Shown piece after piece: positions 8,638-43,284 of a stretch of 64,000 nucleotides of DNA (its first letter is position 1; each line of letters starts with the position of its first letter). This DNA comes from Oceanimonas pelagia (GTDB lineage Bacteria; Pseudomonadota; Gammaproteobacteria; Enterobacterales; Aeromonadaceae), in NCBI RefSeq assembly GCF_030849025.1, contig NZ_CP118224.1, positions 1,348,001 to 1,412,000 on the forward strand, given 5' to 3'. Below the pieces are notes generated by a model that was given only the letters and a program-made list of their open reading frames with translations, made no database searches and had not been told where the DNA came from. Both the position numbers and the translations under genes were made by a program.

Positions 8638-10017
8638 ATGGTAGAGCAAAGGCTGAATGTCCTGATGGTGGAAGACACGCCATCGCTGGCGGCCATGTAT
8701 CAGATGTTTTTGCAGGACGAGCCTCTGTCGCTGACGCTGGTCAGCAGTGGCCAGGAGGCGCTGGAGCATATTCGTCGTCAGCCGCCCGACATTCTGTTGC
8801 TGGATCTGATCCTGCCCGACATGCCTGGTATGGACATTCTGCAATGGCTGCACCAGGAGCAGCTGAATGTCACCACCATAGTGATGACGGCCCACGGCTC
8901 GGTGGACGTGGCGGTAGACGCCATGCGCCTGGGGGCCCACGACTTTATCAGCAAGCCGGTGGAAGCCGAGCGGCTCAAGGTAACCCTGCACAACACCATG
9001 AAATTCCGCCACCTCAACCAGCTGGTGGATCAATACCGTCATGAAATGGAGCGGGAACGGTTTCAGGGCTTTATCGGCGAAAGCCTGCCGATGCAAAAGG
9101 TCTACCGGCTGATTGAAAATGCCGCTCCCAGCACCGCTACCGTGTTTATCACCGGAGAAAGCGGCACCGGCAAGGAGGTGTGTGCCGAGGCCATTCACCA
9201 GCTCAGTGGCCGGGCTGATGGCCCCTTTATCGCCCTGAACTGCGCGGCGATTCCGCGGGATCTGATGGAAAGTGAGCTGTTTGGTCACATCAAGGGCGCC
9301 TTTACCGGGGCGCTGCAGGATCGGGACGGCGCCGTGATCCGCGCCAACGGCGGCACCCTGTTTATGGATGAGATCTGTGAAATGGATCTGGAGCTGCAAA
9401 GCAAGCTGCTGCGCTTTCTGCAGACCGGCCTGATCCAGCCGGTGGGCAGCTCCAACCATGTCAAGGTGGATGTGCGCATCGTCTGTGCTACCAACCGGGA
9501 TCCCCTGGTGGAGGTGGAGCAGGGCCGGTTCCGGGAAGACCTTTACTACCGCCTGCATGTGATTCCGGTGCACCTGCCGCCACTGCGCGAGCGGGGGGCC
9601 GATGTGATCAGCATCGCCACCGCCCTGGTACGCCAGGCCTCGCGGGAAGAGGGCAAGGAATTTGTGGGCCTGTCGGAAGCCACCAAGGACCGGCTGCAGG
9701 CCTATCACTGGCCGGGTAACGTACGCCAGCTGCAAAACGTGATCCGCAACGCAGTGGTGCTGCACCGGGGAGAGTGGATCGAGGTGGACATGCTGCCGGC
9801 TCCCCTCGATCGGCCCCTGTCCGAGGCGCCCGCCGCAGAGCGGGATCTGCTGCCGGCATCTCAGCCGATCCTGCCGCTGGCGGTGATCGAGCGCCAGGCC
9901 ATTGAACGCACCATCGCCCATTGCGACGGCAACATTTCCCGGGCGGCGGCCCTGCTGGAAGTGAGCCCGTCCACCATTTACCGCAAGTTGCAGAGCTGGG
10001 GAGGCGACCATGGCTGA
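8638..10017 (+). CDS. luxO: LuxO-type sigma54-dependent response regulator
   Basis: Quorum-sensing phosphorelay regulator of the LuxO family, 459 residues from ATG 8638 (GAGAGAAACGAG upstream; the longer frame has no RBS). A receiver domain (phosphoacceptor Asp56 in DILLLDL) is followed by an AAA+ domain with Walker A TGESGTGKE at about 172-180, the sigma54-contacting GAFTGA loop at about 220-225, and a C-terminal Fis-type helix-turn-helix (ISRAAALLEVSPSTIYRKL). The sequence between receiver and AAA+ domain and CATNRDP closely match Vibrio LuxO. It overlaps luxU by 8 bases. In Vibrio, phosphorylated LuxO activates sigma54-dependent small RNAs; a candidate lies just beyond luxU. Confidence 0.9.
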   Translation: MVEQRLNVLMVEDTPSLAAMYQMFLQDEPLSLTLVSSGQEALEHIRRQPPDILLLDLILPDMPGMDILQWLHQEQLNVTTIVMTAHGSVDVAVDAMRLGAHDFISKPVEAERLKVTLHNTMKFRHLNQLVDQYRHEMERERFQGFIGESLPMQKVYRLIENAAPSTATVFITGESGTGKEVCAEAIHQLSGRADGPFIALNCAAIPRDLMESELFGHIKGAFTGALQDRDGAVIRANGGTLFMDEICEMDLELQSKLLRFLQTGLIQPVGSSNHVKVDVRIVCATNRDPLVEVEQGRFREDLYYRLHVIPVHLPPLRERGADVISIATALVRQASREEGKEFVGLSEATKDRLQAYHWPGNVRQLQNVIRNAVVLHRGEWIEVDMLPAPLDRPLSEAPAAERDLLPASQPILPLAVIERQAIERTIAHCDGNISRAAALLEVSPSTIYRKLQSWGGDHG

Positions 10018-10384
10018 CTGGCAGCGGCTGCATGGCCGTCTGCCACTGCTGGATGAGCTTCGGCTGGAACAGCTGGAGCGGGATCTGGGTGGCGAAGCAC
10101 TGGAACGGTTGTTGCGACTGTTTGCGGAAGACGGTGTGCAGCAGGGGGCCTCCCTGGCCGAGGCCTTTGCTGAACAGAATGAGGACGGCATGGCCCGCTG
10201 GTGTCACAGCCTGAAGTCGGCCTGTGGCAGTTACGGGGCGCTGCGTTGCCAGTTTCTGGCAGAAAAGCTGGAGGCGGCCTGCCGGCGCCATGAACCAGCG
10301 GAGATTGCCGCCCTGATGAAGGCCTGGCAGCAGGCACTGCAAGAAACACTGGCATGCGTGCAGAACCGGCTGGGCTCACGGTAA
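10010..10384 (+). CDS. luxU: Phosphorelay (HPt) protein LuxU
   Basis: 124-residue histidine phosphotransfer protein. The HPt signature ARWCHSLKSACGSYGA places the phosphorylated histidine at His66. Start ATG 10010 overlaps the luxO stop (ATGGCTGA), a translationally coupled arrangement seen in Vibrio luxOU. It would relay phosphate from hybrid sensor kinases (none in the window) to LuxO Asp56. Its stop is only seven bases from the terminator of a converging transcript. Confidence 0.88.
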   Translation: MADWQRLHGRLPLLDELRLEQLERDLGGEALERLLRLFAEDGVQQGASLAEAFAEQNEDGMARWCHSLKSACGSYGALRCQFLAEKLEAACRRHEPAEIAALMKAWQQALQETLACVQNRLGSR

Positions 10385-10390
10385 AGAGGC

Positions 10391-10465
10391 AAAAAAAAAT
10401 GGCCAACCCAATGGGTTGGCCGAACTTCAGCGGGAGCTGAAGAGAGCACGGGATAAAAACGACTG
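10391..10465 (-). ncRNA. Candidate sigma54/LuxO-dependent small RNA
   Basis: About 75 nt predicted from the promoter position (start near 10465) to the T9 run ending at 10391. It contains an unpaired 5' part with ATCCC, a perfect stem-loop (CTTCAGC, loop TCCC, GCTGAAG; 10425-10442), and a strong terminator (GGCCAACCC, loop ATT, GGGTTGGCC, then A and nine T; 10391-10421). C-rich single-stranded loops are typical of sRNAs that pair with Shine-Dalgarno sequences. The conserved core of Vibrio Qrr RNAs (GTTGTTAGTGAA) is absent, so it is not a recognisable Qrr. No ORF with an RBS is present. Existence is inferred from promoter, activator sites and terminator together. Confidence 0.6.
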
Positions 10466-10475
10466 GTTACATATA

Positions 10476-10491
10476 TGAAAGTATCGTGCCA
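10476..10491 (-). promoter_or_regulatory. Sigma54-type -24/-12 promoter
   Basis: The minus strand reads TGGCACGATACTTTCA: a perfect -24 element (TGGCACG) and a -12 element TTTCA with one mismatch to TTGCA, at the correct 10-base spacing between the two dinucleotides. It points at the short transcript ending at 10391. Confidence 0.6.
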
Positions 10492-10548
10492 ACTTTGCAA
10501 AAGCCCATGCTACAAGGGTTGGCGGCATTTCGGACCCAAAAATAGCCA

Positions 10549-10561
10549 TTGCAGAGTGCGA
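10549..10561 (-). promoter_or_regulatory. LuxO-like activator box 1
   Basis: Minus strand TCGCA-CTC-TGCAA, nine of ten arm bases matching the LuxO dyad TTGCA-N3-TGCAA as I recall it for Vibrio. Centred about 90 bases upstream of the predicted sRNA start, a usual enhancer distance. Confidence 0.5.
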
Positions 10562-10588
10562 ATTTTCCCATTGTGAAAGTCTTTTTTG

Positions 10589-10601
10589 TTGCAATATGAA
10601 A
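10589..10601 (-). promoter_or_regulatory. LuxO-like activator box 2
   Basis: Minus strand TTTCA-TAT-TGCAA, nine of ten arm bases matching TTGCA-N3-TGCAA and with an A/T-only centre. Centred about 130 bases upstream of the predicted sRNA start and 40 bases from box 1. Confidence 0.5.
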
Positions 10602-10736
10602 CTGCCAGAACCGAGTGACACCGTCCGCTGACCTGGGTACCGGCCGGTTTGCCTTCCCGTTGTTCGTGAACAAATATTTCTTGATCTGAAGCAATGTTTG
10701 CCCCTAAGGTGAAAGTGATAATTGTCATCGCCGTTA

Positions 10737-41634: not shown

Positions 41635-41805
41635 GGGCAGTCCTTTAGCGAGTGAGAAACACCTGTCACGTTAGCCTGTTATGACGCCGGGGAGTGAGGC
41701 GCGGGTCACAATTACCGAGTCGACCGGGTCTTTTTCGGGCTTGCATCCGGCAGCCCGGTTGCGGATTATGTGAGTTTTGTCACAACCACCAAGGAACATG
41801 CCCGC

Positions 41806-43284
41806 ATGAGCGCCATTTGTATCAAGGACGCCCGTTTTGCCATCAGCGATCGTCATCAGTTGCACATTCCCGAACTGAGCCTGGCCGGCGGCCAGTGCTG
41901 GGCCTTTGTGGGGGCCAATGGCAGCGGCAAAACGGCACTGGCCCGGGCCCTGGCGGGGGAGCTGAAGTGCCTGGAAGGCCAGGCCGGGCACCACTTTTCC
42001 CGTGTAGAATGGGTATCGTTCGAGCAGCTTCAGCAACTGGCGGACCGGGAGCGGGACGAGGATGAGAGCGATCTGCTCGACGTTCAGGACGACGGTCACA
42101 GCGCCCGCCAGATTATTCTTGAGGGCGGTAATGACAAGGCCCGGCTTGAGGCGCTGGCGGCGCGCTTTGGCATCACCGCGCTGCTGGATCGCGGTTTCAA
42201 GTACCTTTCTACCGGTGAAACCCGCAAGGTGCTGCTGTGCCGGGCGCTGCTGAGCCAGCCCGAGCTGTTGGTGCTCGACGAGCCCTTTGACGGCCTGGAC
42301 GCCCATTCCCACGAGGGCCTGATGGGACTGCTGGCCGAGCTGGTGGCTGCCGGCCAGACCCTGGTGCTGATCGTTAATCGCTTCGAAGAGCTGCCCGGCT
42401 TTGCCAGCCATCTCGGCATGCTGGCCGAATGCGAGCTGATCCAGGCCGGCCCGCGGGAAGCGGTGAGCGCCTCGGTCGAACTGCAGCAGCTCCACCACCT
42501 GGCGGCGCTGGAAGCCTGCACGCGCGCCCTGCCGCCGGCGGATCCGGACGCCGAGCGCCGGGAGCTGGACACCGTAACGCCGCGCATTGTGATGCGTGAC
42601 ATTCAGGTCAGCTATGGCGACAAGGTGATCCTCAATGGCCTCAACTGGCAGGTAAATCCGGGGGAGCACTGGCAGGTAATGGGCCCCAACGGCGCCGGCA
42701 AGTCTACCCTGCTGAGCCTGGTCACCGGCGATCACCCCCAGGGCTACAGCAACGATCTCACCCTGTTTGGCCGGCGCCGGGGCAGTGGTGAGACCATCTG
42801 GGACATCAAGCAGCACATCGGCTACGTCAGCACCACCATGCAGCAGGACTACCGGGTGACCGCCACGCCCAAAGCGGTGATCCTGTCGGGCTTTTTCGAC
42901 TCCATCGGCGTGTATCAGCAACCCGGCGATGCCCAGCTCAAGCTGGCGGATCAGTGGCTGGCGCTGCTCGGCATGGAGCGGCTGGCCAACGAGCCCTTCC
43001 GTAATCTTTCCTACGGCCAGCAGCGGCTGCTGCTGATCGCCCGGGCCATGGTCAAGCATCCGCCCATTCTTATCCTCGACGAGCCGCTGCAGGGGCTGGA
43101 TACCTTTAACCGCCACTGGGTCAAACGCTGGATCGATCTGCTGGTGGCCGAAGGCGGCACTCAGTTGCTGTTTGTGTCTCATCATCCGTCGGATGCTCCC
43201 TCCTGTATCAGCCACCGGCTCAGCTTTGTGCCTGACGGCGAGGGTGGTTACCGCTACCTTGGTGAGGCGCTCAACAAGGCTTGA
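41806..43284 (+). CDS. modF: ModF, duplicated ABC ATPase linked to molybdate transport
   Basis: 492 residues from ATG 41806 (AAGGAA upstream). Two complete ABC cassettes: Walker A GANGSGKT with signature LSTGETRK and Walker B LLVLDEP in the first; GPNGAGKS, LSYGQQR and ILILDEP in the second. No membrane domain. E. coli ModF (490 residues, next to modABC) is the closest known protein. Its exact role, storage or handling of molybdate, is unproven. It fits the molybdenum theme of the window although modABC is absent. Confidence 0.87.
   Translation: MSAICIKDARFAISDRHQLHIPELSLAGGQCWAFVGANGSGKTALARALAGELKCLEGQAGHHFSRVEWVSFEQLQQLADRERDEDESDLLDVQDDGHSARQIILEGGNDKARLEALAARFGITALLDRGFKYLSTGETRKVLLCRALLSQPELLVLDEPFDGLDAHSHEGLMGLLAELVAAGQTLVLIVNRFEELPGFASHLGMLAECELIQAGPREAVSASVELQQLHHLAALEACTRALPPADPDAERRELDTVTPRIVMRDIQVSYGDKVILNGLNWQVNPGEHWQVMGPNGAGKSTLLSLVTGDHPQGYSNDLTLFGRRRGSGETIWDIKQHIGYVSTTMQQDYRVTATPKAVILSGFFDSIGVYQQPGDAQLKLADQWLALLGMERLANEPFRNLSYGQQRLLLIARAMVKHPPILILDEPLQGLDTFNRHWVKRWIDLLVAEGGTQLLFVSHHPSDAPSCISHRLSFVPDGEGGYRYLGEALNKA

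Follow-up and report, generated by a model that had tools for sequence, protein, structure and literature searches.

The window analyzed in this study, a stretch of 64,000 nucleotides from the 3.59 Mb genome of Oceanimonas pelagia, carries luxO and luxU on the plus strand, and a predicted small RNA gene lies on the opposite strand directly past luxU (Table 1). A first-pass annotation had named two LuxO-like dyads, a sigma54 promoter and two stem-loops with a terminator at this place, and all of these elements were found on the minus strand where it had put them. The dyads, given there as about -130 and -90, each have one mismatch to TTGCA-N3-TGCAA and were measured to begin at -136 and -96, and both hairpins together with the run of nine T residues do fall inside 75 bases. 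The sigma54 promoter is likewise present, but its sequence does not match the consensus at -13, where T replaces G.

Table 1. Features of the luxO-luxU region of the window and of the adjoining predicted small RNA gene
Feature	Coordinates	Strand	Basis or remarks
luxO, sigma54-dependent response regulator, presumed activator	8638-10017	plus	NF041946, 660 bits (curated cut-off 800)
luxU, HPt phosphorelay protein	10010-10384	plus	PF01627, 35.6 bits; NF041948, 34.5 bits (cut-off 140); convergent with the RNA gene
Small RNA gene, predicted 75 nt, non-coding	10391-10465	minus	predicted +1 near 10465 (CAGTCGTTTTTATCCCGTG...)
Intrinsic terminator	10391-10421	minus	hairpin 10401-10421, followed by A and T9 (10391-10399)
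Stem-loop 1, CTTCAGC-TCCC-GCTGAAG	10425-10442	minus	fold; loop differs among relatives
5' region with conserved core TTTATCCCGTGCTCTCTTCAG, proposed pairing region	10437-10465	minus	conservation and fold; last part of the core lies inside stem 1
Sigma54-type promoter TGGCACGATACTTTCA, T instead of G at -13	10476-10491	minus	GG and the -12 C invariant in relatives
LuxO-type UAS, proximal, TCGCACTCTGCAA, one mismatch	10549-10561	minus	begins at -96 from the predicted start
LuxO-type UAS, distal, TTTCATATTGCAA, one mismatch	10589-10601	minus	begins at -136 from the predicted start
Molybdenum cofactor riboswitch RF01055, ahead of moaA	10729-10881	plus	71 bits; divergent from the RNA gene, common intergenic region

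The predicted RNA folds 5 s.d. below its shuffled versions, and none of 200 shuffles reached as low a value. Terminator-like sites as such were about as frequent as expected over 2.6 kb (2 found, 2.8 expected). A small peptide was ruled out as the product, as the RNA contains no ATG and one of its frames holds a stop. Weak Rfam matches (suhB/mmgR at 16.6 bits and E 0.42, ctRNA_p42d and SorY) fell far under the gathering scores and were taken as chance.

A covariance model, R1, was built from 22 RNAs of the window's genus (g1), the window copy included, and it matches that copy at 10393-10465 with 105.5 bits. Mean column identity among these 22 RNAs is 91%, and their loops vary. The compensatory changes in the stems that the annotation had proposed as a check were found: 11 of 16 pairs were changed on both sides and 96.9% of cells pair among 62 RNAs (39 distinct) in an alignment that was fitted to R1's own structure, and 3/16 pairs covary in an independent MAFFT alignment of the 22 g1 RNAs. 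None of 500 shuffles equaled 11/16, and slid controls gave 0-3 pairs. All nine pairs of the terminator stem show two-sided changes among the 39 distinct relatives, and stem 1 conserves its sequence as well as its pairing. The core TTTATCCCGTGCTCTCTTCAG is exact in 58 of the 62 loci; the 5' part of the RNA is unpaired in the fold, and much of the core is single-stranded. The C-rich loops of the annotation do exist, but they are not conserved even within g1; conservation lies instead in the unpaired 5' stretch and in the stem 1 sequence. A C-rich loop as the active part was ruled out on the same ground, since the loop reads TCCC, TTTA, TCTA, TTAG and others among g1 RNAs.

Searches with R1 covered 394 genomes from the order, 75 from the family and 56 from a second family (f3), under stricter filters that lose some weak matches, so that absences are not final. 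The RNA was found in 70 of the 75 family genomes (g1 22/23, g2 36/37, g3 0/1, g4 3/3, g5 9/11) and in 7/56 genomes of f3. The family genomes lacking an R1 match were G056, G031 (80% complete), G038, G071 and G072. Across the order, matches at E <=1.5e-4 came from 13 g1, 21 g2 and 4 f3 genomes. Nine weaker matches in other families (9/394, E 2e-4 to 0.01) were set aside, the core being absent at the places compared in five of these genomes (one place each; G144, G172, G174 and G268 were left out). The sister genus g2, represented by 37 genomes of the family with sizes of 3.4-5.2 Mb, is probably Aeromonas. The RNA class is wider than the first-pass annotation had supposed: besides g1, it is found in g2, in two more genera and in some members of the second family.

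In 22 of the 23 g1 genomes, the RNA gene and its promoter adjoin luxU. At one g4 locus (L220), the order is luxO, luxU, FIST protein, hybrid kinase and RNA, with the RNA gene convergent; a second (L221) has open reading frames of the same kind and order, judged by resemblance, and a cofD-like one on the opposite strand; and at the third (L222) the RNA gene is the immediate neighbor of the HPt gene, an arrangement also seen in the window. The g2 locus L070 has the order HPt-(cofD)-FIST-kinase-RNA, and luxO is located elsewhere. The grouping of the FIST protein and the hybrid kinase with luxU and the RNA gene at L220, L221 and L070 makes them a likely input to LuxU. In V. cholerae, the FIST protein VpsV and the kinase VpsS feed LuxU, and the cluster of HPt, FIST and hybrid kinase genes that ends at the RNA in the sister genera resembles this pair in gene content. 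In the simplest history, the ancestor would have had luxO, luxU, the FIST gene and the kinase gene in one cluster with the convergent RNA gene at its end; the middle of this cluster would then have disappeared in g1, and luxO in g2.

Conservation of the promoter and the boxes was evaluated at 62 RNA loci (22 g1, 21 taken from the 36 g2 genomes with the RNA, 3 g4, 9 g5 and 7 f3), and both are kept in the relatives, the boxes far better outside g1 than within it. The promoter GG at -24 and the C at -12 are present in 62/62 loci each. At -13, the loci carry T (56), C (4) or G (2), a pyrimidine in 60/62; this is a conserved departure from the sigma54 consensus, and the three qrr promoters compared have G. 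The pattern TGGCACG-N4-TTTCA, which was drawn up after the promoter had been seen, has a single match in the window, and at least one match with one mismatch allowed occurred in 28/100 shuffles.

The consensus of the LuxO UAS appears as TTGCAWWWTGCAA in a passage of PMC10162802; against this Qrr-type UAS, TTGCAWWWTGCAA, the window holds two boxes with one mismatch each and none that is exact. The two dyads, 40 bp apart, are the only ones in the 64-kb window that differ from TTGCA-N3-TGCAA at no more than one position. By chance, 3.66 would be expected per window, and at least two were reached in 86/100 shuffles, so the case rests on the position and conservation of the dyads and not on their number. 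Loci having a box with at most one mismatch amounted to 9/22 in g1, 21/21 in g2, 3/3 in g4, 9/9 in g5 and 7/7 in f3, against 0.45, 1.17, 0.18, 0.65 and 0.26 expected, respectively (200 shuffles per locus). Outside the window's genus, this corresponds to 40/40 loci. Exact boxes were seen at 0/22, 10/21, 3/3, 9/9 and 7/7 loci of the same groups, that is, at 29/40 loci outside g1 versus about 0.2 expected, with shuffles giving at most 0.1 loci per group. The g1 boxes are degenerate: 13/22 loci have none with at most one mismatch, and the best box has three mismatches at L015, L019, L020, L021 and L029. The weakest boxes are those of the window's own genus, and their identification rests on the relatives. 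In the window, the proximal dyad has a TCGCA half-site, a deviation that it shares with many g2 boxes. Sequence outside the boxes is poorly conserved upstream of the g1 promoters. Tandem 7-bp repeats (GTGAGGC) stand immediately upstream of the boxes in several g1 species (L015, L020, L021).

Altogether, a class of LuxO/sigma54-controlled small RNAs parallel to Qrr is very probable, with respect both to its RNA gene and to its control logic. Vibrio Qrr genes also have LuxO-type boxes upstream, encode a short RNA with a strong terminator and are found together with LuxO. Three Vibrio-type qrr promoters that were compared have the same GTTGGCAC start as the promoter here, and their distance from the -12 C to the RNA start, 11 nt, equals the one predicted here. 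The three loci run from AAAAGTTGGCAC through TGC, 11 nt and the start to a terminator built on GCCAATC, with GCCAATC followed by GCCT in two of the three qrr terminators; this architecture is strikingly similar to that of the RNA gene here. Unlike Qrr, the RNA described here has one copy per genome, another gene neighborhood and a pyrimidine at -13, and no clear HapR is found in the window's genus. GlmY and GlmZ are also transcribed from a sigma54 promoter under a response regulator, in which they resemble this RNA, but they differ from it in activator, boxes and sequence.

The Qrr model itself (RF00378) yielded no match over the cut-off in any of the 75 family genomes under the stricter filters; in the window there was none at the gathering score, and none at E 10 in 10350-10650. 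The same model finds Qrr in 29 of the 394 genomes of the order, all belonging to family f22, and none of the 47 genomes of the order matched by R1 belongs to f22. Three weak Qrr matches in the family (E 0.018-0.073) were below the cut-off, and the same search was weakly positive in 2/14 control genomes. A canonical Qrr gene elsewhere in these genomes, which the annotation had named among the findings that would speak against its proposal, was not recovered over the cut-off in the 75 family genomes. The proposal that this RNA replaces Qrr in the lineage is supported by this result together with the R1 matches in 70/75 family genomes, and the description of a Qrr-like control logic without the Qrr core agrees with boxes and promoter that are kept and a conserved core that differs.

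A rather doubtful alternative is that the RNA is a highly diverged Qrr, which would have inherited promoter and terminator from an ancestor shared with qrr and exchanged nothing but the pairing core. The AAAAGTTGGCAC promoter start, the start spacing and the GCCAATC terminators shared by the three qrr loci favor such a descent, as does the placement of Vibrio qrr1 upstream of the luxO homologue, which is stated in a passage of PMC3352281. However, the Qrr model gave no match over the cut-off in 75 genomes, the RNA has 75 nt versus the 108 positions of that model, and the Qrr core is absent, with no resemblance seen between the two RNA cores. Terminators of the GGCCAACC type are also found elsewhere (L090), and the RNA gene lies downstream of luxU or of the kinase gene rather than upstream of luxO. 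This alternative concerns ancestry and could hold together with the reading of the RNA as a counterpart of Qrr.

For the output of the RNA, candidate targets were searched in several ways. Qrr RNAs act with Hfq, by pairing, on the mRNAs of luxR/hapR, aphA and luxO. The HapR model gave no match at E<=1e-25 in 13/13 g1 genomes searched. The window's genome encodes 11 TetR proteins; among the four of them scanned, the only HapR-model match had 21.7 bits versus a cut-off of 350. In g2, a LitR-like gene is present in 21/21 genomes searched, with HapR-model scores of 136-150 bits. Since genomes that have LitR and those that lack it do not differ in the core, the conservation of the core is unlikely to be due to LitR. 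The 18-nt complement of the RNA, with up to three mismatches, was found in 12 genomes at the RNA gene itself 12 times and at 8 other places, compared to 18 for the reversed pattern, and no complement was visible by eye in ten litR leaders of g2. Pairing with the start of luxO in the window, computed apart because luxO was not among the 54 mechanically chosen open reading frames kept, reached -20.5 kcal/mol, and 11/54 of those frames paired better; the top-pairing one (41671-43215), in which no Pfam domain was recognized, appears to be spurious. The luxO-start pairing is not kept in the luxO leaders of g2. These searches of 12 genomes, of litR and luxO leaders and of window reading frames gave no convincing target.

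It is improbable that the RNA acts as a protein-binding sponge and not by mRNA pairing. The sequence of stem 1 is kept beyond what pairing demands, which would suit a protein-binding site, but the fold leaves much of the conserved core unpaired. CsrA sponges carry a GGA motif, and the absence of GGA from the RNA rules out a sponge of this type.

The RNA is also associated with LuxO in its distribution. LuxO (E 1e-125 or better) was found in 72/75 family genomes; of those without a match, G038 also lacks the RNA, and G011 and G068 (63% complete) have it. LuxO without the RNA was seen in G056, G031, G071 and G072 of the family and in G173 and G457 of f3. The locus L031 (G056) is the sole one in g1 with luxO and luxU but no RNA match, and offers a natural test case. 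In f3, LuxO-like matches were full-length in 8 genomes (569-614 bits) and partial in 7 (464-505 bits), and the RNA occurred in 6/8, 1/7 and 0/41 of the full-length, partial and remaining genomes, respectively. Co-occurrence was therefore 7/15 with a LuxO-like protein of at least 460 bits versus 0/41 without (Fisher p = 2.8e-5), and all seven f3 genomes with the RNA have a LuxO-like gene. Linkage does not account for this co-occurrence: in these seven f3 genomes, which are draft assemblies, the RNA and luxO are on separate contigs, and in two single-contig g2 genomes they are separated by about 0.5 Mb (G037) and 2.1 Mb (G010). The window protein and the six g2 proteins compared have the LuxO recognition helix SPSTIYRK in common.

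Another sigma54 activator, such as a second LuxO-like protein or one of NtrC type, is a distinctly improbable driver of the RNA. The window's genome does contain a second LuxO-like gene (622 bits), and there is a precedent in V. fischeri, where SypG uses sites that overlap those of LuxO, according to a passage of PMC10162802. Nevertheless, second copies at E 1e-125 are listed only in G000, G047, G061 and G063, and in two families the RNA occurs together with a LuxO-like protein. The second regulator (G000:C1:2506290-2507708) immediately follows an open frame of 1097 aa that has a match to HPt. We consider it hardly credible that there is no RNA gene, with the hairpins no more than a luxOU 3' end and the boxes serving moaA. 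It is true that moaA and its Moco riboswitch are divergent and that a terminator-like site alone is not unusual, but it is solely on the minus strand that the hairpin is followed by a T tract, other genera have the RNA, promoter and boxes beside different genes, and the stems covary.

The best reading is that the RNA is probably an Hfq-dependent, trans-acting and base-pairing small RNA of the LuxO circuit in the place of Qrr, a candidate functional counterpart of the Vibrio RNAs. We infer the direction of the signal, Hfq and mRNA pairing from the Vibrio system. In this reading, LuxO would be phosphorylated (in Vibrio, at low cell density and via LuxU), and phosphorylated LuxO would bind the two dyads about 90-140 bp upstream. 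Bound LuxO would then contact sigma54-RNA polymerase at TGGCACG-N4-TTTCA, with transcription starting near 10465. The resulting 75-nt RNA would end at the T9 terminator, and Hfq would probably be bound through the U tracts. By analogy with Qrr, mRNAs may be regulated by pairing with the nearly invariant UUUAUCCCGUGCUCUCUUCAG, and target mRNAs would carry a complement to ATCCCGTGCTCTC.

Among the matches listed from the open-access PMC literature, which leaves out most subscription papers and all preprints, no title or start of an abstract describes this RNA, and 13-letter pieces of the core were found in 0 papers of that collection. No description of the RNA was thus found in the open literature searched. 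A passage of the A. salmonicida genome paper states that other unidentified genes may participate, as Vibrio uses multiple small RNAs, and a 2020 genome paper calls the mechanism of regulation still unclear. Should g2 be Aeromonas, as we take it to be, the RNA would also offer a concrete candidate, open to testing, for the output that is missing in that genus.

On balance, we favor the view that the LuxO circuit of the Aeromonadales works through an RNA class of its own, the working part of which would not be homologous to Qrr and has a 21-nt core nearly unchanged over two families, with targets other than HapR/LitR; the wiring of LuxO to a small RNA would thus be older, or more reusable, than the RNA. 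A regulatory slot of LuxO, sigma54 and small RNA that is retained while the RNA filling it differs may provide insights into how small RNA regulons get replaced.
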